From: Rhodospirillales bacterium
GTDB lineage: Bacteria; Pseudomonadota; Alphaproteobacteria; Rhodospirillales; SHVQ01
Length of the DNA stretch: 64,000 nucleotides
Direction of reading: 5' to 3'
NCBI GenBank assembly: GCA_009694195.1
Contig: SHVQ01000007.1
Coordinates: 1 to 64,000 of the forward strand
This document shows, piece after piece, positions 1,559 to 64,000 of the stretch. The notes under the pieces are model-generated. The model was not told the DNA's origin. It did not search any database and saw nothing but the letters and a program-made list of their open reading frames with translations. Both the position numbers and the translations under genes were made by a program. Every line of letters starts with the position of its first letter. The first letter of the stretch is position 1.

Positions 1559-2623
1559 ATGAACGGTCGGCCGACGCGAACGATCGCCGTCGCGACGCTT
1601 CGCGATTTCATGGAACGTCTCCTCGTCGCGGCGGGGGCCAGCGCCGAGAACGCACGCGACTGCGCGGGCGTGTTCCTCGAGGCCGACCTCCGCGGCATTA
1701 CGCTGCAGGGCCTCGATCACATGTCGTCCATGCTGCGAAGCTTGCGCAACGGCAAGATGGCCGGCGCCGCCCGGCCGGTGATCGCGTGCGAGACCGCAGC
1801 GACCGTGCTCATCGACGGGAACCGCGGGCCGGGGCAGGTGGCGGCAATCCTCGCCTGCGACCTGGCCGTTAAAAAGGCGCGCAAAGCCGGTACCTGTGCG
1901 GTCGCCATCCGCAATAGCTCGGATGGCTTCATGGTCGGCTATTACGTCGACCGCATCGCGCGCGAGGGGATGATCGGCTTCATCTTTTCGGACGCGCCGC
2001 CCCTCGTCCGTCCCCATGGCGGCGTCGAGCGGATCCTCGGCACCAACCCATTGGCCATCGGAATTCCGACCGGCGGCGCCAACCCGATGGTGTTCGACAT
2101 GGCGACCAGCGCCCGCTCAGCGTCGCGGGTCCGCCAGGCCGCCTATCACAACGAGGATATCCCGGGAGCAGAAGGCGTCGATTCCAAGGGCCGCTTCTCG
2201 GTCAAGGCGACGGAGGTCCGTGACGGCGCCATCGGCCCGCTCGGGGGAGCCAAAGGCTTTGGCCTTGGGATGATCGTCGCGTTGTTCTCCGGCCCGCTCA
2301 CCGGTTCCGCGTGCGGTAAGGCGCTCAATCCGTGGTTCGATCCGGCACCGGGGCATCTGCCGGGCAAGGGGCACCTGGTCATCGCGATCAATCCGGCCGC
2401 ATTCGGCGACGAGCAGGATTTCCGGATGAACGTCGGGGCCTACCTGGACAAGGTCCGCCACTCCCGCAAAGCACCGGGGGTCCACGAAATTCGCATTCCC
2501 GGCGTGCGCGCCGGAATGACGTGCGAGCAGTCGCTCCGCGAAGGCCGCGTCACCCTGTATGAAGCCATTTGGGACAACATCAAGAAGGTTGCCCACGACT
2601 TGAACGTGACAGTTCCCGCTTAA
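1559..2623 (+). CDS. Ldh2-family (malate/L-sulfolactate/ureidoglycolate dehydrogenase-like) oxidoreductase, copy 1
   Basis: 354 residues of the Ldh_2 fold (PF02615), NAD(P)-dependent dehydrogenases that oxidise 2-hydroxy acids. I chose ATG 1559 because GGGGGAGG lies just before it and because paralogues begin the same way; an ATG 27 codons upstream has no such site. Recognisable blocks are FMERLLVAAG, EADLRG, ERILGTNPLAIGIPT and FDMATSAR, then a glycine-rich GGAKGFGLGM. The family's catalytic SHG histidine is replaced: residues 47-52 read ITLQGL, with Gln at position 50. A His occurs three residues later (GLDHM). First of four Ldh2 paralogues in 5.3 kb. The substrate is unknown. Confidence 0.8.
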   Translation: MNGRPTRTIAVATLRDFMERLLVAAGASAENARDCAGVFLEADLRGITLQGLDHMSSMLRSLRNGKMAGAARPVIACETAATVLIDGNRGPGQVAAILACDLAVKKARKAGTCAVAIRNSSDGFMVGYYVDRIAREGMIGFIFSDAPPLVRPHGGVERILGTNPLAIGIPTGGANPMVFDMATSARSASRVRQAAYHNEDIPGAEGVDSKGRFSVKATEVRDGAIGPLGGAKGFGLGMIVALFSGPLTGSACGKALNPWFDPAPGHLPGKGHLVIAINPAAFGDEQDFRMNVGAYLDKVRHSRKAPGVHEIRIPGVRAGMTCEQSLREGRVTLYEAIWDNIKKVAHDLNVTVPA

Positions 2624-2640
2624 GCCGAGAGGAGGAGGCC

Positions 2641-3711
2641 GTGACCGCACAGACCGGACAGCCCCGGCGCAAGATAGACGCGAACGTGCTTCGCGACCTG
2701 ATGGAGCGCCTCCTGATGGCCGCCGGCTGCGATGGGGAAAACGCGAGGGGAGCCGCCGACGGATACCTGGAGGCCGATTTGCGCGGCCATACGATCCAGG
2801 GCCTCGACCACATGTATTCGACCCTCGGGCGCATCCAGAAGCGCGAGGTGAACGGCAAGTCGAAGCCCCGGATCGTCCGCGAAACGGAAGCCACGGCTCT
2901 CATCGACGGCGACACAGGCGAAGGGCACTTCGTCGGCTGCCAAGCCGTCGAGATCGGCATCCGCAAGGCCCGCGCCGCCGGCTCGTGCATGGTCGGCCTC
3001 ATCAACACCGACGACATCTTCATGCTGGGTTACTACGCCCACAAATTCGCCGACGCCGGCCTCGTCAGTCTCATCTTCACCAACAGCTTCCCGGTGCGCG
3101 TCCACCCGGCCGGCGGCATCGACCCTGTGCTCGGCACCAATCCCATCGGCATCGGCGTGCCGACGGCGGAAGGGTTTCCGTTGATCTGGGATTCGGCGAC
3201 CAGCACGTCGGCCATCGGACATATCCGCATCGCGAGCTACCGGGGCGATCCCATTCCGGCGGGCGTCGCCGTCGATGCCGACGGGCGCCCGACGCGCGAC
3301 GCCGTCGCCGCCCTCAAGGGCGCCCTTACGCCCTTGGCCGGGGCCAAAGGTTACGGTCTCGGGCTGTGCGCCGCGATCCTCTCGGGCCTCTTGATCAGCG
3401 CCGACCTGGGCAGCGTACTCCGCGATGCGTTCGCGCGCGGCGACGGGACGAAACGCCGCGGCCATTCGTTCATCGCGATCGACCCTCGGGCGTTCGGCGA
3501 TGCGGCCCGCTTTCGCGCCGCCGCCAGCGCGCACCTGAAGCAGATCAAGTCGTCACGCAAGACGCCCGGCGTTCGGGACATTTTGGTTCCCGGCGAGCGC
3601 GCCCTGGCGCTTCGCGAGCGCAGCCTCAAGGAGGGAGTCCTGATCCTCGAGAGCGTCTGGCAGAACACGGGCAAGCTTGCGGCTGGGCTCGGCGTCGCGA
3701 TGCCGGCGTGA
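2641..3711 (+). CDS. Ldh2-family oxidoreductase, copy 2
   Basis: 356 residues from GTG 2641, chosen because GAGAGGAGGAGG lies directly upstream and only 17 bases separate it from the copy 1 stop. Domain blocks match copy 1: DLMERLLMAAG, YLEADLRGH, DPVLGTNPIGIGVPT, IWDSATSTS and GAKGYGLGLCA. The SHG histidine position is again Gln (HTIQGLDHM, Gln53). The central segment DTGEGHFVGCQAV differs from the GPGQ seen in copies 1 and 4, so the copies are not recent duplicates and may differ in substrate. Likely cotranscribed with copy 1 and the following GST gene. Confidence 0.8.
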   Translation: MTAQTGQPRRKIDANVLRDLMERLLMAAGCDGENARGAADGYLEADLRGHTIQGLDHMYSTLGRIQKREVNGKSKPRIVRETEATALIDGDTGEGHFVGCQAVEIGIRKARAAGSCMVGLINTDDIFMLGYYAHKFADAGLVSLIFTNSFPVRVHPAGGIDPVLGTNPIGIGVPTAEGFPLIWDSATSTSAIGHIRIASYRGDPIPAGVAVDADGRPTRDAVAALKGALTPLAGAKGYGLGLCAAILSGLLISADLGSVLRDAFARGDGTKRRGHSFIAIDPRAFGDAARFRAAASAHLKQIKSSRKTPGVRDILVPGERALALRERSLKEGVLILESVWQNTGKLAAGLGVAMPA

Positions 3712-3808
3712 ACTCGGAAGATATGGCCCTTATCGCGCCAATGGTGTTAGCCTGTCGCCAGAGACAGTCCGGCCCACGGACGAACAGCGCCCGCCGCGGA
3801 GGAGACGC

Positions 3809-4420
3809 ATGAAGCTCAGGTACTCACCGACCTCGCCTTACACGCGGAAGGTGACCGTCACGGCCCTCGAAACCGGCCTGCACGACAAGATCGAGCGCGT
3901 CCCGACCAACGTCGACGATCCCAACAACGACATCTGGACGCAGAATCCGCTCGTCAAGGTTCCGTGCCTCGTCACCGACGACGGTACGCCGCTCTTCGAC
4001 TCGCCGGTGATCTGCGAGTACCTCGACAGCCTGAGCAAGGGACCGAAGATGTTCCCCGCGCCGGGCCCCGCCCGCTGGACGGCGCTGCGCCGCCAGGCGC
4101 TCGCCGACGGCATCATGGATGCGGCCATTCTCCGCATGGGCGAGAGCCGCCGCGAGAAGAACCTGCAGTCGGAGGCGTTCCTGAAGAAACAAAGCCGCAA
4201 GATGGAGCAGGGCCTCGACGCCCTCGAAGCGGAGGCCGACAAGCTGAACGGCCCCCTCGACATCGGGCTCATTTCCATCGGCTGCGTGCTCGAGTATCTC
4301 GATTTGCGGTGGCCCGGCGACGAGTGGCGGAAAAAGCGGCCGAAGCTGACCGCCTGGCAGAAGACATTCGGCCAGCGTCCGTCGATGTTGACGACCGTTC
4401 CGCCGAAGCCCACGACCTGA
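3809..4420 (+). CDS. Glutathione S-transferase family protein
   Basis: 203 residues, normal GST length. The thioredoxin-like N-domain starts MKLRYSPTSPYTRKV, where SPYTRKV is the usual active-site Ser/Thr loop. NPLVKVPCLVTDDGTPLFDS holds the cis-proline (VPCL) and the glutathione-binding ES/DS turn (FDSPVICEYLD). An all-helical C-domain follows. ATG 3809 has GGAGGAGAC immediately upstream; an in-frame ATG 44 codons earlier would overlap the preceding gene and lacks support. It sits inside the Ldh2 run, about 90 bases after copy 2, so it is probably in the same transcript. It may detoxify a reactive intermediate or act as an isomerase; the sequence does not decide. Confidence 0.85.
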   Translation: MKLRYSPTSPYTRKVTVTALETGLHDKIERVPTNVDDPNNDIWTQNPLVKVPCLVTDDGTPLFDSPVICEYLDSLSKGPKMFPAPGPARWTALRRQALADGIMDAAILRMGESRREKNLQSEAFLKKQSRKMEQGLDALEAEADKLNGPLDIGLISIGCVLEYLDLRWPGDEWRKKRPKLTAWQKTFGQRPSMLTTVPPKPTT

Positions 4421-4486
4421 CCTGCTTGACGGATCTGTCCGGGAGAGAGATGTTGCGACAATCCACCGAGGAAGGGGGAGCCCAAG

Positions 4487-5725
4487 ATGCCCAGCGCTAA
4501 ACCCGTAACAATCAAGAACAGCGATTTGCGTTCCCTCATGGAGCGGCTGATCAAGGCCGGGGGCTGCAAGCCCGATACGGTCTCCACGGTCGCCAACGTC
4601 TTCTACGAGGCGAACCTGCGCGGTATTCCGATCCAGGGCCTCAACCATCTGCTCGGGTTTGTCCGCAACTTGAAGTCGGGCAAGGTCAACCCGGACGGCA
4701 AGCCGAAACTCGTCAAGGAAGGCGCCGGCTTCGCCATGATCGAGGGCAACAAGGGCCCCGGCGTTCTCGCCGGCATCTACGCCGCCGACGTCGCGGTCGA
4801 GAAGGCGAAGAAGTCGGGCTTCTGCACGGTCGGGATCACCAACTCGGCCGACATCTACATGGTCGGCTTCTACGTCGAGCGCATCGCGCGCAACGGCTTG
4901 GTCGGCCTCTGCTTCACCGACGCGACACCCGCCGTGCACCCGACCGGCGGCATGGAGAAGATGCTGGGAACGAACCCCATCGGCATCGCCGTGCCGACCA
5001 AAGGCGGCGATCCGATCGTTCTCGACTTCGCCACCTCGGCCACGTTGCTCACCCACATCAAGTACGCCGCGGCACACGGGACGAAGCTGCCGCCCGACGT
5101 CGCCATCGGGCCGGACGGCAAGATGACGACCGATCCCAATCTCGCCCTGCAAGGCGCGGTCAGCCCGCTTGGCGGCCACAAGGGCTTCGGCCTCGGCTTG
5201 AGCGTCGCGCTTCTGTCGGGCGCCCTCGTCGGCGGCGCGATGGGACATGGTCTTGCGGGCGACAAGCCCGGACCGAAAGGCCATCTGTTCATGGCCATCG
5301 ACCCGGCGGCGTTCGGCGACCCCGACTCCTTCCGCAAGGGCGTCAGCGCCTACGTCACGGAAGTGAAGTCGTCGCGGAAGGCTCCCGGCGTGAAAGAAAT
5401 CCGCGTCCCGGGCGAGCGGAGTTTCGCCGAGCGCGAGCGTTCGCTCAAGCGCGGCACGGTCGAGATCGATCCCGTCCTGTGGGAAAACACGATCAAGCTC
5501 GCAGGCGAGCTCGGCGTTGCGTTACCCTCGCTGGGCGGCGCTCCGAAAGCTAAGCCTGCGGCGAAGAAGCCCGCCAAGAAGGCCAAGGCCGCCAAGCGCC
5601 GTCCGGCGGCGCGCAAGGCCAAGGCCGCGAAGCGTCCCGCCAAGCGAAAGGCGAGCGCGAAACGGAAGCCCGCGCGTGCGGCGAAGCGTAAGGCGCCGGC
5701 GCGGAAGGCCAAGAGGCGGCGCTAG
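4487..5725 (+). CDS. Ldh2-family oxidoreductase, copy 3, with Lys/Arg/Ala-rich C-terminal tail
   Basis: 412 residues: an Ldh2 catalytic domain (about 1-349) plus a basic tail (350-412). The start ATG 4487 has AAGGGGGAG upstream. Catalytic blocks include LMERLIKAGG, YEANLRGI, EKMLGTNPIGIAVPT, LDFATSATL and GGHKGFGLGL. The SHG histidine is Gln50 (PIQGLNHL). The tail is made of AKKPAKK- and AKRKA-type repeats and resembles histone H1 or AlgP-like bacterial tails, which bind DNA or other polyanions. The three paralogues here lack it. The reading frame is continuous to TAG 5725, so the tail belongs to the protein unless the assembly is wrong. Confidence 0.8.
   Translation: MPSAKPVTIKNSDLRSLMERLIKAGGCKPDTVSTVANVFYEANLRGIPIQGLNHLLGFVRNLKSGKVNPDGKPKLVKEGAGFAMIEGNKGPGVLAGIYAADVAVEKAKKSGFCTVGITNSADIYMVGFYVERIARNGLVGLCFTDATPAVHPTGGMEKMLGTNPIGIAVPTKGGDPIVLDFATSATLLTHIKYAAAHGTKLPPDVAIGPDGKMTTDPNLALQGAVSPLGGHKGFGLGLSVALLSGALVGGAMGHGLAGDKPGPKGHLFMAIDPAAFGDPDSFRKGVSAYVTEVKSSRKAPGVKEIRVPGERSFAERERSLKRGTVEIDPVLWENTIKLAGELGVALPSLGGAPKAKPAAKKPAKKAKAAKRRPAARKAKAAKRPAKRKASAKRKPARAAKRKAPARKAKRRR
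5534..5722 (+). repeat. Low-complexity Lys/Arg/Ala tail coding repeat
   Basis: This stretch encodes the last 63 residues of Ldh2 copy 3. By count 31 residues are Lys or Arg and 22 are Ala. Short degenerate units such as AAKKPAKK, AKAAKRP and AKRKA recur, typical of slippage-grown histone-H1-like tails. Confidence 0.8.
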
Positions 5726-5775
5726 CCGACCCTTCCGTTTATCCACGTTAGTCGGTTCACAATCGGAGCGTCGGC

Positions 5776-6840
5776 ATGGCCAGACACGCGTCGCGTATGG
5801 TTCGCATCGAAGTATTGCGCGACCTCATGGAGCGCTTGATCGCGGCCGGCGGTTGCGACCGCGAGATGCAGAAGGAGGTGGCCAACGTTTTCCTCGAGGC
5901 CAACCTCCGCGCGATCCACCACCAGGGTCTCGACTACATGCCCAAATTCCTGGAGGCGCTCAAATCGGGCAAGATCAAGCCGAACGGCCGCCCGCGCATC
6001 GTGAAGGAAGGGCCGGCTTTCGCCTTGATCGACGGCGATCGGGGCCCGGGGCAAACAGCCGGCAACATGGCGGCGGAGGTCGCGGTCCGTAAGGCGCGCG
6101 AGGCGGGCGCGGCCGCGGTCGGCGTCACCAATTCCAGCGACATGTACATGGTCGGCTATTTCGTCGACATCATCGCCGACCGGGGTTGCATCGGTCTCCT
6201 ATGGTCGGCCTCGCCGCGCCTCGCCCACCCCCATGGCGGCGTCGAGCGCCGGCTCGGCACCAACCCGCTCGCTGTCGCGGCACCCGGCGGCGACGGTTAC
6301 AACTACCTGATCGATCTCGCCACCACGGCGCTCGCGCGCTCGACCGTGCGGAACGCCGACTATCACGGCGAGCCGATCCCGGAAGGCTGTGCGCTCGGCC
6401 CCGATGGCCTCCCCACGACGAATGCCGCCCGCGCGTTGCAGGGAGCCTTGAGCCCTCTCGCCGGCGCCAAAGGCTTCGGCCTCGGGCTCATCGTCGGATT
6501 TCTCTCGGGCCCGCTCGTTGGCGGCGACGTTGGCTTCGCCATGGACGGCTGGTACGAGCCGAACCCGAAGTCGGTCGGCAACAAGGGGCACTTCTTCGTC
6601 GCCATCGACCCGGCGGCGTTCGTCGGTGCGGACGCGTACAGGCGCGCGGCGCGCGACTATTTCAATGCGTTGAAGAACTCGAAGAAGTCGCCCGGCGCGT
6701 CGGAGATTCGGATCTCCGGCGAGCGCGTGCACGGCGCGCGCAGGAAGGCGCTGGCGGAGGGCGCCGTGCCCATCGACGAGGTGGTCTGGCAGAACACGGC
6801 CAAGCTCGCCGCCAGCCTCGGCGTCGCGATGCCGGATTAG
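5776..6840 (+). CDS. Ldh2-family oxidoreductase, copy 4
   Basis: 354 residues from ATG 5776. The ribosome site is weak (cggagcg), and ATG 5797 (MVRIEVL) is an alternative start. Family blocks are DLMERLIAAGG, FLEANLR, ERRLGTNPLAVAAP, IDLATTALAR and AGAKGFGLGLIVGF. The histidine of the usual SHG motif is Gln50, in HHQGLDYM; here two histidines precede it. The gene ends eight bases before a poorly conserved spacer and faces the convergent lyase gene. Its GPGQTAGNMAAEVAVRKA block is closest to copy 1. Ldh2 proteins are cytoplasmic NAD(P)H-linked dimers; the substrate is unknown. Confidence 0.8.
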   Translation: MARHASRMVRIEVLRDLMERLIAAGGCDREMQKEVANVFLEANLRAIHHQGLDYMPKFLEALKSGKIKPNGRPRIVKEGPAFALIDGDRGPGQTAGNMAAEVAVRKAREAGAAAVGVTNSSDMYMVGYFVDIIADRGCIGLLWSASPRLAHPHGGVERRLGTNPLAVAAPGGDGYNYLIDLATTALARSTVRNADYHGEPIPEGCALGPDGLPTTNAARALQGALSPLAGAKGFGLGLIVGFLSGPLVGGDVGFAMDGWYEPNPKSVGNKGHFFVAIDPAAFVGADAYRRAARDYFNALKNSKKSPGASEIRISGERVHGARRKALAEGAVPIDEVVWQNTAKLAASLGVAMPD

Positions 6841-8272: not shown

Positions 8273-9619
8273 CTAGGACAGCTTCAGCGTCGTCAGCCCC
8301 TGGCCGACCGTGTCGACGAACTGGTCGATATCCTTTTCCGTCATCGGCGTCGTGACGGCGCACATTCCGGTCGGTGCGATGATGACGCCGTGGTCGAGCA
8401 GGTATTCGCAAAGCTGGGCCAGGCGTTGGCGCTCGTCCGGCTTCGGATACTGGGACCGGTAGCCGCTGAGCGTGCGCTCGTGCGTGTGGATGCGGAAGAG
8501 CGAGCCGTGTCCGGTCACTTGGGCGTTGGCGCCGGCGGCCTTGATCGCGCGCCGGAGGCCCTGGCGCGCTCGCTCGCCGAGCGCGTTGATGCGGTCGAAC
8601 ACGGGCCGGGTGAGGAGCCGCATGGACTCGGCGCCCGCCGCCATCGTCACCGGGTTCCCGGAGTAGGTGCCGGACTGCGGCACTTTGGTCTTGCCCTTGG
8701 TCGGATCGAATACGCTCATGAATTCGTCGCGCCCGCCGACCGCGCCGATGGGAAAGCCGCCGCCTATGATCTTGGCGAGGCAGGTCAGATCGGGATCGAT
8801 CCCGAATTCGCCTTGGGCGCCGTGATATCCCAGGCGGAAGCACAGCACTTCGTCGCAAATGAGGAGGACCCCGTTGCGCGTGCAGAAGTCGCGCAGAAAA
8901 TCGAGAAACTCTCGGGTCGCCGAGATCATGCCCGCCTTGTTGGCGACGGGGTCGATGAGCACGCACGAGAGGTTGCCCTTCTCGGCCTCGAGAATTTTCT
9001 TGGCGCGCGGAACGTCGTTGAAGGGAAACACGACCACGTCGTCGAGCATGTGCTGGGGCGTGCCCTTGGTATAGGCGATGGACGCGGGTTTGTCCTCGGT
9101 GCCCCAGTTGTCGGGCGTGGGCTCGAGGCTGACCTCGGCGTAGTCGTAGCTGCCGTGAAACGCGCCCTCGCATTTCGCGACCTTGGGCCGGCCGGTATAG
9201 GCGCGCGCGGCCTTGATCGCCCACATCACGCATTCGGTGCCGGAATTCTGAAAGCGGATCTTCTCGATCGAGGGGACGCGCGCGCAGAGGATTTCCGCGA
9301 GCTCGACCTCCTTCTCAGTCGCGAACGAGAACCCGGTGCCGTTCCGCACCTGCTCCATCACCACCTTTTCGATGGCGGGATGCCCGTAGCCGTGGATGGC
9401 CGCGGTGTAATTGTTGTTGAAGTCGATGCGCTCGATTCCGTCCACGTCGACCACGCGGGCGCCGTGCCCGGAGCGGACGTAAATGGGGAACGGCGATGCA
9501 TAGGTGGCCTGCCGGCTCGTTCCGCCCGGCAACACCTTCCGCGCGCGCTCGAAGATCTGGGCCGAGCGCGAGTTGAGCCTGCTCGGGGAAGGCGCGGAGT
9601 CGGGTTTCTTGGGGGCCAT
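8273..9619 (-). CDS. Class III aminotransferase, glutamate-1-semialdehyde aminomutase-like
   Basis: 448 residues, PLP-dependent fold type I. Landmarks in order are RVVDVDGIERIDF, the phosphate-binding region NSGTECVMWAIKAAR, LLICDEVLCFR (the Asp that pairs with the pyridine N) and LAKIIGGGFPIGAVGG, which carries the PLP lysine. The next match is HemL/glutamate-1-semialdehyde 2,1-aminomutase and related omega-aminotransferases. The N-terminal extension and the absence of haem genes argue for a catabolic transaminase. The start ATG 9619 follows aaGGAccc. It lies between the DMT exporter and the lyase on the same strand, with a 46-base gap to the lyase, so an operon is likely. Confidence 0.78.
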   Translation of the reverse strand: MAPKKPDSAPSPSRLNSRSAQIFERARKVLPGGTSRQATYASPFPIYVRSGHGARVVDVDGIERIDFNNNYTAAIHGYGHPAIEKVVMEQVRNGTGFSFATEKEVELAEILCARVPSIEKIRFQNSGTECVMWAIKAARAYTGRPKVAKCEGAFHGSYDYAEVSLEPTPDNWGTEDKPASIAYTKGTPQHMLDDVVVFPFNDVPRAKKILEAEKGNLSCVLIDPVANKAGMISATREFLDFLRDFCTRNGVLLICDEVLCFRLGYHGAQGEFGIDPDLTCLAKIIGGGFPIGAVGGRDEFMSVFDPTKGKTKVPQSGTYSGNPVTMAAGAESMRLLTRPVFDRINALGERARQGLRRAIKAAGANAQVTGHGSLFRIHTHERTLSGYRSQYPKPDERQRLAQLCEYLLDHGVIIAPTGMCAVTTPMTEKDIDQFVDTVGQGLTTLKLS

Positions 9620-13720: not shown

Positions 13721-14899
13721 ATGAGCATCGAAACGCTGTTGAAGAAAGTGAAACTCGGCTCCGAAGCGGCCTTCCCGAAGAAGGAGTTCGACCGTCGCGT
13801 GGGCGCGTTGCAGGCGATCCTGCGGAAGAAGGGTATCGATCTCTTCATGACCAGCGGGGCCGAGAACATCTTCTATCTCTGCGGCCAGCAGACGCCCGGC
13901 TATTACATGTTCCAGTGCCTGTTCGTCCCGGCGAAGGGCACGCCGTTCCTGGTCATGCGCGGGCTCGAGCGGTTCAACGCGCGGGCCAACAGCTACCTGG
14001 AAGACATTCAAGGCTATTCCGATACCGGGCACCCCGCCGCCGCCGTCGTCGACGTCGTGAAAGCCCGCGGCTGGAAAGGGAAGAAGATCGCGGTCGACCG
14101 CAATGCCTGGTTCCTCACTGTAAATATTTACGAGCGGTTGTCGCAAGCGCTCGGAAAGACGCTCGACGGTTCCGACCTGGTAGAATCGCTTCGGCGGGTG
14201 AAGTCGCCGCTGGAGCTCGAGTCCATGAAGCAGTCGGGCATCATCAACGACGCCGGTATGCGCGCCGGCCTCGCGGCCGTCCGCCCGGGCGTCACCGAGA
14301 ACGACGTTGCCGCCGCGACCATGGGCGCCCTCATCGCCGCGGGCTCCGAGTATCTCGGGATGGAGCCGTTCGTCACCTCCGGCCCCCGGTCGGGCCATCC
14401 GCACTCCACGTGGCGCCGCCGCAAGCTGGAAGACGGCGACATGTGCGTCATCGAGACGGCGGGCTGCTACAACCGCTACCACGTGGCGAGCTTCCGCAGC
14501 GTCGCCATCGGCAACGTCCCGCAGAAGTGCCGTGACTGGTACAAGATCTGCCTCGAAGCGCTGGAGACCGGCGTTCGGGCCGTTAAGCCGGGCGTCACCG
14601 CCGCCTACGCCCACGACGCCGTGCAAAAGGTCATCGACCGCCATGGCGTGACCGACAGCTACCGCAAGCGCCTCGGCTACAGCCTCGGCATCTCCTTCGC
14701 GCCGGACTGGGGCGAGGGCAACATCCTGAGCCTGAACGCCGGCGTCAACGTCGAGCTCAAGCCCGGGATGACGTTCCACGTGCCGATCACGCTCCGCGAC
14801 TACGGCAAGTTCACGGTCGCCGTCAGCGAGTCGGTGATCGTGACATCCCGCGGCTGCGAGCAGTTCGGCAAGGTCCCGCGCGACCTCGTTCAGGTCTAA
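13721..14899 (+). CDS. M24-family hydrolase, ectoine hydrolase (DoeA/EutD)/creatinase-like
   Basis: 392 residues with a creatinase N-domain (about 20-165) and a pita-bread C-domain. The C-domain lacks most aminopeptidase metal ligands: the GHG histidine site reads GYSLGIS and the first Glu site reads FHVP. The segment GYSLGISFAPDWGE closely resembles that of ectoine hydrolases as I remember it, and creatinase likewise works without metal on a cyclic C-N bond. I infer hydrolysis of a cyclic or amide nitrogen compound. No DoeB deacetylase is nearby, so ectoine itself is uncertain. ATG 13721 follows a purine run (aaggaaaattgagacc). Confidence 0.72.
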   Translation: MSIETLLKKVKLGSEAAFPKKEFDRRVGALQAILRKKGIDLFMTSGAENIFYLCGQQTPGYYMFQCLFVPAKGTPFLVMRGLERFNARANSYLEDIQGYSDTGHPAAAVVDVVKARGWKGKKIAVDRNAWFLTVNIYERLSQALGKTLDGSDLVESLRRVKSPLELESMKQSGIINDAGMRAGLAAVRPGVTENDVAAATMGALIAAGSEYLGMEPFVTSGPRSGHPHSTWRRRKLEDGDMCVIETAGCYNRYHVASFRSVAIGNVPQKCRDWYKICLEALETGVRAVKPGVTAAYAHDAVQKVIDRHGVTDSYRKRLGYSLGISFAPDWGEGNILSLNAGVNVELKPGMTFHVPITLRDYGKFTVAVSESVIVTSRGCEQFGKVPRDLVQV

Positions 14900-14930: not shown

Positions 14931-15470
14931 GTGGCACGGCCGCGGCAGACCCGGAAGGACGGCGGGGTCGATTGGCCCAAAGCCGTCCATCGGGTCCTGC
15001 GCGTGGCTGATATCCGACATATCGCCTTCGTTCCCGATGCTGGATTGAGCCGCCTGATTGATCTCTGCGGCGCCGACCCCGCAATGCGCCTCATTCCGCT
15101 CACGACGGAAGAGGAGGGGATCGGTGTCCTCGCCGGCGCGTGGCTCGGCGGTGAACGGGGCGTGCTCCTGATGCAGAGCAGTGGCGTCGGGAATTGCATC
15201 AACGCCTTCTCTTTGATCGCCACCTGCCGATTTCCGTTTCTCGCGATCGTCACCATGCGGGGCGAGTGGGGCGAGTTCAATCCGTGGCAGGTCCCCATGG
15301 GCCAGAAGGCCGAAGCGGCGCTTAAGCTGGCGGGCGTCGTTCCCTATCGCCCCGAGGATGAAGCGAGCATCGCTCCGACCGTGGACGCCGCGCAGAAATT
15401 CGCACGCGACAGCGACGTGGCAACGGCCGTGCTCGTCTCGCAAGCGTTGATCGGGATGAAGCGATGGTGA
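14931..15470 (+). CDS. ThDP-dependent decarboxylase, PYR (alpha) subunit, sulfopyruvate decarboxylase ComD-like
   Basis: 179 residues from GTG 14931. This is only the pyrimidine-binding domain of a ThDP enzyme. The catalytic glutamate lies in TTEEEGIGVLAG (residues 60-62), and QSSGVGNCINAF is the conserved loop. Split alpha/beta decarboxylases of this size are typical of sulfopyruvate decarboxylase (ComDE), with phosphonopyruvate decarboxylase the fused relative. The stop overlaps the beta-subunit start, so the two are translationally coupled and should form a heteromer. The product would be a C2-substituted aldehyde plus CO2. The true 2-oxo acid is not certain. Confidence 0.75.
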   Translation: MARPRQTRKDGGVDWPKAVHRVLRVADIRHIAFVPDAGLSRLIDLCGADPAMRLIPLTTEEEGIGVLAGAWLGGERGVLLMQSSGVGNCINAFSLIATCRFPFLAIVTMRGEWGEFNPWQVPMGQKAEAALKLAGVVPYRPEDEASIAPTVDAAQKFARDSDVATAVLVSQALIGMKRW

Positions 15471-16075
15471 AGGCCGCACGAACAGGAGCCGACGGGACGC
15501 TCGGCCGCCGAAACGCCGTCCGGGCGTTGCTCAAGGACCGGGGCGATCTGCTGGTCGTGAGCGGACTCGGGTCGCCGACTTGGGACGTGGCCGCGGCGGG
15601 CGACTCAGCGAGTAACTTCTATATGTGGGGCGCCATGGGCAGCGCTGCCACGATTGGCCTCGGGCTCGCGCTGGCGCAGCCGCGGCGGCCCGTCCTCGTG
15701 ATCACGGGGGATGGGGAGCTGATGATGGGCATGGGCGCGCTCGCCACCATCGGCGTCCAAAAGCCCTCGAATTTCGCGCTCGTCGTTCTCGACAACGAGC
15801 GCTACGGCGAGACCGGCATGCAGATGAGCCACACGGCCCACGGCATCGACCTCGCCGTCATAGCGCGCGGGAGCGGGTTCAGGACGGCGCTCACCATCGG
15901 TACGATGGCCGGCGTGACGTCGCTCGCACGCGTGCTTCATCGGAAGGTGGGCCCCGTGTTCGCCGCGATCAAGGTGCTCGCAGGGGAGGACGCGCGCGTC
16001 CTTCCCCCGCGGGACGGCGTGTTCCTCAAGAACCGGTTCCGCGAAGCGATCTTGCGGAAGGCCGACAGTCGATGA
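15464..16075 (+). CDS. ThDP-dependent decarboxylase, PP (beta) subunit, ComE-like
   Basis: 203 residues. The ThDP/Mg2+ diphosphate motif runs from GDGELMMGMG (82-91) to DNERYG (110-115), with Asn111 as the metal ligand. MWGAMGSAATIGLGLAL is the usual start of this domain. ATG 15464 lies inside the alpha-subunit stop region (ATGGTGA), a seven-base overlap that indicates coupled translation. Together with the alpha subunit it forms one active site. It follows an aminotransferase and an aldolase in the same run, consistent with decarboxylation of a 2-oxo acid. Confidence 0.78.
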   Translation: MVKAARTGADGTLGRRNAVRALLKDRGDLLVVSGLGSPTWDVAAAGDSASNFYMWGAMGSAATIGLGLALAQPRRPVLVITGDGELMMGMGALATIGVQKPSNFALVVLDNERYGETGMQMSHTAHGIDLAVIARGSGFRTALTIGTMAGVTSLARVLHRKVGPVFAAIKVLAGEDARVLPPRDGVFLKNRFREAILRKADSR

Positions 16076-62584: not shown

Positions 62585-62872
62585 GTGGCTGCACCTCATT
62601 TTCTCGTGCACAACCCGACCGACACGGTCGGGGTCGTGGTGGTCGAAGACGTGAAGGCCGGCCGTGCGCTGAACGGCTGGATGATGGAGACGGACAAAAC
62701 CATCAAGCTGAAGGCGCTCGACCCTGTCCCGCTCGGGCACAAGATCGCGCTTCAAGACATCAAGAAGGGCGAAACCATCATGAAGTACGGGCATGATATC
62801 GGCCGCGCGGTCGCCAAGATCGGGAAGGGCCGGCACGTCCACGTCCACAACGTGAAAACGAAGAGGTGGTAG
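62585..62872 (+). CDS. suyA: SAF-domain small subunit of a UxaA-family hydro-lyase, SuyA-like
   Basis: 95 residues from GTG 62585, with GGAGGGACAAGG upstream. The protein is one SAF beta-clip: [20 protein letters not shown], then [20 protein letters not shown] and [20 protein letters not shown], ending KTKRW. Altronate dehydratases carry this domain fused to the large domain. A separate gene of this size ending NVKTKRW is how I remember the alpha subunit of (2R)-sulfolactate sulfo-lyase. The large subunit starts three bases after the stop. It would help bind substrate or metal. Confidence 0.65.
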
Positions 62873-62874
62873 TC

Positions 62875-64000
62875 ATGGCCCGTAAAAACCCGGCGCCCAC
62901 GTTCTGGGGTTACCGTCGGAAGAACGGCCGGGTCGGCGTTCGCAATCACGTGATCGTGCTTCCGCTCGACGATCTGTCGAACGCGGCCTGCGAGGCCGTG
63001 GCGAACAATATCAAGGGCGTGATGGCGTTGCCCCATGCCTACGGGCGCCTCCAATTCGGCGCCGACTTGGATCTGTTCTTCCGCACGCTGATCGGGACGG
63101 GCGGAAACCCCAACGTCGCGGCCTGCGTCGTCATCGGAATCGAGCCCGGTTGGACCAAGCGCGTGGTCGACGGCATCGCCAAGACGGGAAAGCCGGTGGA
63201 AGGGTTCGCGATCGAGCGCAACGGCGACATCAACACCATCGCCGCCGCCAGCCGCAAGGCGAAGGAATTCCTCCAGTGGGCGAGCGAACAGAATCGCGTC
63301 GAGTGCCCGGCGACCGACCTTTGGGTGTCCGTGAAGTGCGGCGAGTCCGACACCACTTCGGGACTCGCCTCCAATCCCACGGTCGGCAACTTCATCGACA
63401 AGATGGACGCGGTCGGCGCGACCACGTGCTTCGGCGAGACCTCCGAGATCACCGGCGCCGAAAAAGTCTGCGCCTCGCGCGGCGCTACCAAATCGGTCGG
63501 CCAGAAGTTTTTTAAAACGTGGAAGGCCTACATGGACGAGGTGATCGAGCCCCACAAGACCAACGACCTCTCCGAAAGCCAGCCGACCAAGGGCAACATC
63601 GAGGGTGGCCTCACGACGATCGAGGAAAAAGCCTACGGCAACCTGGAAAAGATCGGCCGCAACGCCCGCTACATCGACGTGCTCGGCCCCGCCGAGACGC
63701 CGTCGAAGGGCCGCGGCCTCTATTTCATGGACACGTCGTCGGCTGCCGCCGAATGCGTGACCTTGCAGGCGGCGGCGGGCTTCGTCGTCCACCTGTTCCC
63801 GACCGGCCAGGGCAACGTCATCGGCAATCCGATCGAGCCGGTGATCAAGCTCACGGCCAATCCGCGCACCGCGCGCACCATGAGCGAGCACATCGATCTC
63901 GACGTCTCCGGCATCCTCCGGCGCGAGCTCACCCTCGACAAGGCCGGCGACCAGTTGATCGACGTGACGCTCCGCACCTGCAACGGGCGCCTCACCGCGG
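62875..64000 (+). CDS. suyB: Large subunit of UxaA-family hydro-lyase, SuyB-like, cut by window edge
   Basis: 375 residues visible from ATG 62875, close to full length. Motifs are [60 protein letters not shown] and [20 protein letters not shown]. These are the D-galactarate dehydratase/altronate hydrolase C-domain, an iron-dependent lyase. The split organisation and the GESDTTSGL segment fit (2R)-sulfolactate sulfo-lyase, which releases sulfite and pyruvate, but a dehydratase for another acid is a real alternative. The C-terminus lies outside the window. Confidence 0.65.

Follow-up and report, generated by a model that had tools for sequence, protein, structure and literature searches.

What remains of a dehydrogenase when both histidines of its active site have been replaced? 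The question is raised by four genes on contig SHVQ01000007.1 from a Rhodospirillales bacterium (assembly GCA_009694195.1), of which positions 1 to 64,000 were analyzed (referred to as the window). All four are encoded on the forward strand and code for proteins that match the Ldh_2 family along their entire length (PF02615, 320–340 bits each, cutoff 38.8). In AllD from Escherichia coli, a member of this family, His116 is the experimentally supported base and Arg48 binds the substrate carboxylate; the mutants H116A and R48A show no activity at all, and H44A retains about 1/500 of kcat/Km (PMC3527362). His44 and His116 have been called invariant in the family, and all members have been proposed to use one of the two (PMC3527362). 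Our comparisons indicate that the four proteins belong to a rare branch of single origin within this well-known dehydrogenase family. The two histidines that normally carry the chemistry are missing from this branch, replaced by Gln and Asp, respectively. A natural and conserved clade devoid of both histidines is a direct exception to the family-wide proposal.

Active-site residues of the four paralogs

The four genes are all of the Q44/D116 type (AllD numbering, unless residues of an individual copy are given). They are copy 1 (1559–2623, 354 aa, 325 bits to PF02615, motif LQGLDH, with Q50, H54, D122, and R151), copy 2 (2641–3711, 356 aa, 320 bits, IQGLDH, with Q53, H57, and D125), copy 3 (4487–5725, 412 aa, 340 bits, IQGLNH, with Q50, H54, D122, and H151), and copy 4 (5776–6840, 354 aa, 322 bits, HQGLDY, with H49-Q50, Y54, D122, and H151). 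AllD, YiaK, and YbiC of E. coli K-12 served as reference sequences. In each copy, a Gln aligns without gaps to AllD His44 (codons starting at 1706, 2797, 4634, and 5923), and the position of AllD His116 is occupied by Asp (codons starting at 1922, 3013, 4850, and 6139). The two residues are 72 positions apart in all four proteins, as are His44 and His116 in AllD. The Arg48 position, four residues after the Gln, carries His in copies 1–3 and Tyr in copy 4, and Ser43 corresponds to Leu, Ile, Ile, and His in copies 1–4. The changes thus extend over the entire substrate side of the site, beyond a single residue.

An initial annotation of this locus had reported four Ldh2 copies with Gln in place of the His from the SHG motif, and our alignment bears this out. 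Its description of that His as the catalytic one is too simple, given the weak activity of AllD H44A and the complete inactivity of H116A (PMC3527362), and it had overlooked the loss of the second active-site His. It had also pointed to a His three positions further on as a possible substitute base. This His is present in copies 1–3 and absent from copy 4, as had been stated; its offset, in turn, is four residues. A role as substitute base is not supported, given its location at the Arg48 position, which is Tyr in copy 4 and in 8 of the 30 clade members described below. We also checked whether the true catalytic His lies elsewhere and is kept in all four copies; this is not so, as each has Asp at position 116.

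For a broader comparison, 104 sequences were collected: 30 have Q44 (29 with D116 and one with Gly), 70 have H44 and H116 (canonical proteins), and four have other residue pairs. Neither Q44 nor D116 occurs in any of the 70 canonical relatives. When the clade was aligned with these 70 proteins, no substitute His was found that is universal in the four copies as well as clade-specific. The four copies do share a His at position 263, but it is also present in 24 of the 70 canonical proteins.

A single clade under constraint

In a maximum-likelihood tree of the 104 proteins, all 30 Q44 proteins are placed on a single branch with 100/100 support, and this branch is nested among hydroxy-acid-type Ldh_2 proteins. 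The positions that best distinguish the clade from the rest of the family are 44 (Q), 116 (D), 145 (H), 47 (D), 190 (Y), 48 (H/Y), 119 (M), and 118 (F). Arg48 is lost in all members, with His in 22 and Tyr in 8 of them, and position 145 shows a new His in 29/30, the exception being copy 1 with Arg. Furthermore, Ser43 is variable, Tyr52 is lost, position 47 is changed to Asp, and Gly118/Ala119 are mostly changed to Phe/Met.

Residues that contact the cofactor are kept (T156 in 28, P158 in 30, D174 in 29, K224 in 28, and G306 in 30 of the 30 proteins). At position 308, where the NAD-specific AllD has Asp and the NADPH-using DpkA has Arg (PMC3527362), 27/30 clade members have Arg. This hints at the use of NADP(H) and would be compatible with NADPH, as for a DpkA-type imine reductase.

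For six pairs of close relatives, with the two members taken from different genomes, the ratio of nonsynonymous to synonymous substitution rates (dN/dS) is 0.075–0.145; these pairs are under purifying selection. Given the low dN/dS and the retention of the NAD(P)-site residues, the active-site substitutions are not the result of decay. The earlier view of the Gln as a shared and ancestral feature, and not a sign of decay, is corroborated by the single clade (100/100) and by these dN/dS values.

Copies 1, 2, and 4 show only 46–49% pairwise sequence identity to copy 3. Copy 2 groups with proteins from Sodalis, Enterobacterales, and Hyphomicrobiales and not with the other copies (100/99, group of seven), copy 1 groups with a paralog on C8 of its own genome, and copies 3 and 4 are placed elsewhere in the tree. 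Since none of the copies has another copy as its nearest relative, the array brings together old paralogs. A recent tandem duplication is ruled out by the level of sequence identity together with the assignment to different subclades. Tandem copies also exist in other genomes, with three in a row at each of the loci L049 and L050.

Fold and family assignment

Copy 3 was modeled with AlphaFold2 from 42 sequences (mean predicted local distance difference test score 96.6, predicted template modeling score 0.93); this model superseded a first one from 12 sequences (mean local score 79). The family fold is intact, because the only strong matches to solved structures are members of the Ldh_2 family (VIA Z 38–44). 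By descent and fold, the proteins are certain to be Ldh_2/L-sulfolactate-dehydrogenase-like; at the positions of His44 and His116, which form the catalytic signature of the family, each copy has Gln and Asp. None of the four reaches the curated cutoff of a characterized subfamily: scores are 161–175 bits for TIGR03175 (AllD ureidoglycolate dehydrogenase, cutoff 496.2), 212–236 bits for NF040650 (L-sulfolactate dehydrogenase, sulfolac_dhydr, cutoff 500), and 162–195 bits for NF007504 (malate/lactate/ureidoglycolate dehydrogenase YbiC/HcxB, cutoff 336).

Three characterized relatives illustrate what is shared and what differs. E. coli AllD, an (S)-ureidoglycolate dehydrogenase (4FJS/4H8A/4FJU), has the same fold (VIA Z 40.6–41) and the NAD contacts T156, P158, D174, K224, and G306. 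It differs by its His116 base, Arg48 for the substrate, and His44 by the nicotinamide, where the clade has Asp, His/Tyr, and Gln, and by its Asp308, which confers NAD specificity, where Arg prevails in the clade. The L-sulfolactate dehydrogenase ComC from Methanocaldococcus jannaschii (2X06) is, at 287 bits with the clade profile, the solved sequence nearest to the clade and has the same fold, but it retains S43-H44-R48-H116, and its substrates are sulfolactate-type anions. DpkA from Pseudomonas syringae, a delta1-piperideine/pyrroline-2-carboxylate reductase (1WTJ/2CWH), shares the fold and the Arg at position 308, but it retains both histidines and Arg48 (30% sequence identity).

Distribution of the clade

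The genome that carries the window resembles a metagenome-assembled genome (MAG; 2.5 Mb, 73% complete, 49 contigs). It codes for 16 Ldh_2 proteins, 12 of which have the Q44/D116 pair (8 outside the window). In 40 genomes from this order, the number of Ldh_2 genes ranges from 0 to 8. Among the remaining four proteins of the genome under study, three look canonical at position 44, and L010 (C5:74669–75637) has lost both histidines in a different way (Ser/Asn; NSG/Asn116). The latter represents a second, independent active-site change in this genome; its sister L003 (C10:58023–58988) has SHG/Asn116.

Beyond this genome, 18 further Q44 proteins were found. They come from alpha- and gammaproteobacteria, Sodalis among them, and from a spirochaete MAG. 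One of these clade members (L049:4775–5827) has Gly at the D116 position, and its homolog in L050 (91% sequence identity) retains Asp. A profile made from the 12 own-genome proteins scores about 400 bits and more for the clade and 319 bits and less for canonical proteins. Searches with this profile identified other clade-bearing genomes in 2 of 297 from the order, one full and one partial case in 289 from the class, and none in a phylum sample of 398. The clade is sparse in these genome samples. A scan of 84,980 species retrieved 11 loci, from alpha- and gammaproteobacterial MAGs, Sodalis sp. dw_96, an Enterobacterales MAG, and a Spirochaetaceae MAG; as it used one peptide pattern that already contains the Asp, this count is a lower bound, biased with respect to D116 and unbiased with respect to Q44. 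No relatives were found on viral contigs. The closest plasmid matches (Halomarina, Haloarcula, and Martelella; up to 44% sequence identity) are canonical proteins with SHG and H116 and do not belong to the clade. A literature search for Ldh_2 proteins without these histidines yielded only the AllD paper.

Gene neighborhoods of clade members

The neighbors of 22 clade loci were compared with those of 40 canonical Ldh_2 loci from the same class. M24 hydrolases resembling ectoine hydrolase/creatinase are encoded at 14/22 clade loci versus 0/40 canonical loci (p = 1e-8) and M20 carbamoylases resembling AllC/ErtE at 8/22 versus 0/40 (p = 1e-4). Weaker links exist to alanine dehydrogenase (4 vs. 0) and to arginase-family proteins (3 vs. 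0). A linkage to the hydantoinase HyuA/HyuB was rejected (2/22 and 1/22 vs. 3/40 each). The nearest solved relative of the neighboring M24 proteins is the ectoine hydrolase DoeA (6TWJ/6TWK).

M24 genes are abundant in the genome under study (41, three of them in the window at about 14, 21, and 44 kb) and in other clade-bearing genomes (37–39), but not in Sodalis sp. dw_96 (6 in 5.9 Mb). Several genomes with an M24 gene at the clade locus hold few M24 genes. Outside the genome under study, M24 genes are found at 10/14 loci; for nine of the positive loci together, 0.65 would be expected, a value which omits loci without an M24 match and which increases to roughly 1.2 (estimate) when these are added. 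In Sodalis sp. dw_96, the operon-like gene order is polar amino-acid ATP-binding cassette transporter, M24, M20, 2-hydroxyacid-dehydrogenase-like gene, a gene of unknown function, clade protein at L056:7995–9086, and a second M20. In both Enterobacterales loci, the gene immediately before the clade gene codes for a protein of about 300 residues (L056:7109–8005 and L058:7064–7963); the L056 protein has no Pfam match.

The neighbors (M24, M20, arginase-type proteins, alanine dehydrogenase, amino-acid transporters) suit the breakdown of cyclic amidines, of ureido/guanidino compounds, or of N-substituted amino acids, and the clade operons point to as yet unexplored routes by which small nitrogen-rich compounds are degraded. 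EutABC/EutD (DoeA) clusters for ectoine/hydroxyectoine are similar in having M24 ectoine-hydrolase-like proteins, and EutA-like genes are found beside the array in the window, but all matches from clade loci are below the family cutoffs. To our knowledge, an Ldh_2 gene has not been described in known ectoine clusters.

Possible chemistry and alternative explanations

The reading that we favor, with confidence somewhat short of even, is that this ancient and rare clade has kept its fold and NAD(P) site and has rebuilt the substrate side, so that hydride transfer occurs with Asp116 and on C–N substrates. Hydride transfer would be retained because the contacts to nicotinamide, ribose, and phosphate are retained, and Asp116 would replace His as acid/base or as stabilizer of a cation. 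With two His and one Arg lost and Asp gained at position 116 and usually at 47, the active site would be less positive. A neutral or cationic C–N substrate (imine, amine, or amidine-derived) may thus be favored over the 2-hydroxy/2-oxo acid anions of canonical members, and the paralogs would serve different members of this substrate class.

In D-type imine reductases, the donor is an Asp with nonpolar neighbors, among them a characteristic Met (PMC7540600); when the catalytic Lys of beta-hydroxyacid dehydrogenases was exchanged for Asp, these enzymes became able to reduce imines (PMC7756219). The D-x-F-M run of the clade is reminiscent of this Asp/Met setting. The comparison is one of function only, an Asp donor with nonpolar (Phe/Met) neighbors, as these enzymes have an unrelated fold and are not Ldh_2 family members. 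The clade would then be a natural parallel to the engineered Lys-to-Asp switch from a hydroxy-acid dehydrogenase to an imine reductase. Within the Ldh_2 family, DpkA reduces cyclic imines (PMC3527362).

Several points weigh against this proposal. DpkA reduces imines with both His and Arg48 intact, so that imine chemistry needs no change of the histidines. The active-site geometry was deduced from an alignment and not from coordinates. The models for the neighbors were trained on the neighbors themselves, the M24 proteins among them score below the DoeA family cutoffs, and M24 genes at the own-genome loci (4/8 vs. 1.8 expected, p = 0.09) are only weakly above chance. Finally, the neighboring enzymes differ between clade loci, and no complete known pathway is recognizable.

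The proteins might instead be ordinary 2-hydroxy/2-oxo acid dehydrogenases with a base relocated to His145, to His/Tyr48, or to Asp116 itself. The near-universal His145 would fit, as it lies in sequence between Ser140/Asp141 of the AllD substrate shell and Phe147 of the adenine pocket, as would the prevalence of His48 (22/30) and the nesting among hydroxy-acid-type proteins. We nevertheless regard this as rather unlikely: none of the new His residues is shared by all members (position 145 is Arg in copy 1, and position 48 is Tyr in copy 4), the carboxylate-binding Arg48, essential in AllD (R48A inactive, PMC3527362), is lost throughout the clade, and M24/M20 neighbors are absent from all 40 canonical loci. 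A loss of redox function, leaving a pseudo-enzyme, a binding protein, or a non-redox lyase or racemase on an NAD-binding scaffold, might be suspected from the disappearance of both family-invariant histidines and from the L049 relative, which lacks even D116. It is improbable, however, as residues contacting nicotinamide, ribose, and phosphate are kept in at least 28/30, which also leaves the earlier suggestion of a reaction other than hydride transfer without support; Q44 and D116, the substituting residues, are near-invariant as well, dN/dS is low, and the genes have an operon-like placement with catabolic enzymes. The fragmented, incomplete source genome might raise suspicion of an assembly, binning, or alignment artifact, or of recent local degeneration in one MAG. 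This is practically dismissed, since the same residue pair in independent assemblies, including Sodalis sp. dw_96 (a record not labeled as MAG) and the spirochaete MAG, refutes an artifact, and the spacing of 72 residues is gapless with intact reading frames.

Returning to the proposed C–N chemistry, the clade members probably catalyze a reaction in the breakdown of small nitrogen-rich compounds. Labels based on the family, such as "Ldh family" or "malate/lactate dehydrogenase", very likely indicate the wrong substrate. A more far-reaching proposal, which we consider possible but put forward with marked reserve, is that of a hitherto undescribed enzyme class built on the Ldh_2 scaffold. Its His/His/Arg site, suited to anionic hydroxy/oxo acids, would have given way to Gln/Asp/His(Tyr), with neutral or cationic C–N compounds as substrates. 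These enzymes would act together with M24 and M20 hydrolases in catabolic modules of the ectoine or creatine type and would have radiated to at least 12 paralogs in one small-genome lineage.

Other features of the window

Copy 3 has a C-terminal tail of about 60 residues (5537–5722) which is rich in Lys, Ala, Arg, and Pro and resembles histone H1 or AlgP; a similar tail is absent from the other 163 genes called in the window and in the own-genome neighborhoods. Between copies 2 and 3, a glutathione S-transferase-like protein is encoded (3809–4420, forward strand; GST_N_2 63 bits; PRK10357-like 136 bits, below the cutoff of 181).

Further downstream is an ectoine-hydrolase/creatinase-like M24 hydrolase (13721–14899, forward strand; PF00557/PF01321; ectoine_DoeA_2 293 bits, below the cutoff of 575), the recurrent neighbor of the clade. 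It is followed by two short genes resembling the alpha and beta subunits of sulfopyruvate decarboxylase (ComD/E-like, 14931–16072, both below cutoff). A large UxaA/galactarate-dehydratase-like gene, cut by the window end, and a preceding small gene, its likely partner, are located at 62585–63999. The ComD/E-like and UxaA-type genes prompted us to consider a sulfolactate pathway, which was rejected: Arg48 is lost, the scores are far below the cutoffs, and similar neighbors were not noticed at other clade loci.

A class III aminotransferase is encoded near the array on the reverse strand (8276–9619, PF00202 211 bits). Directly upstream of the array are two EutA/arylmalonate-decarboxylase-like genes, also on the reverse strand: one at 656–1411 (Amdase PF17645 114 bits; ectoine_eutA 110 bits, far below the cutoff of 318) and its neighbor at 3–632, which was assigned by sequence likeness.

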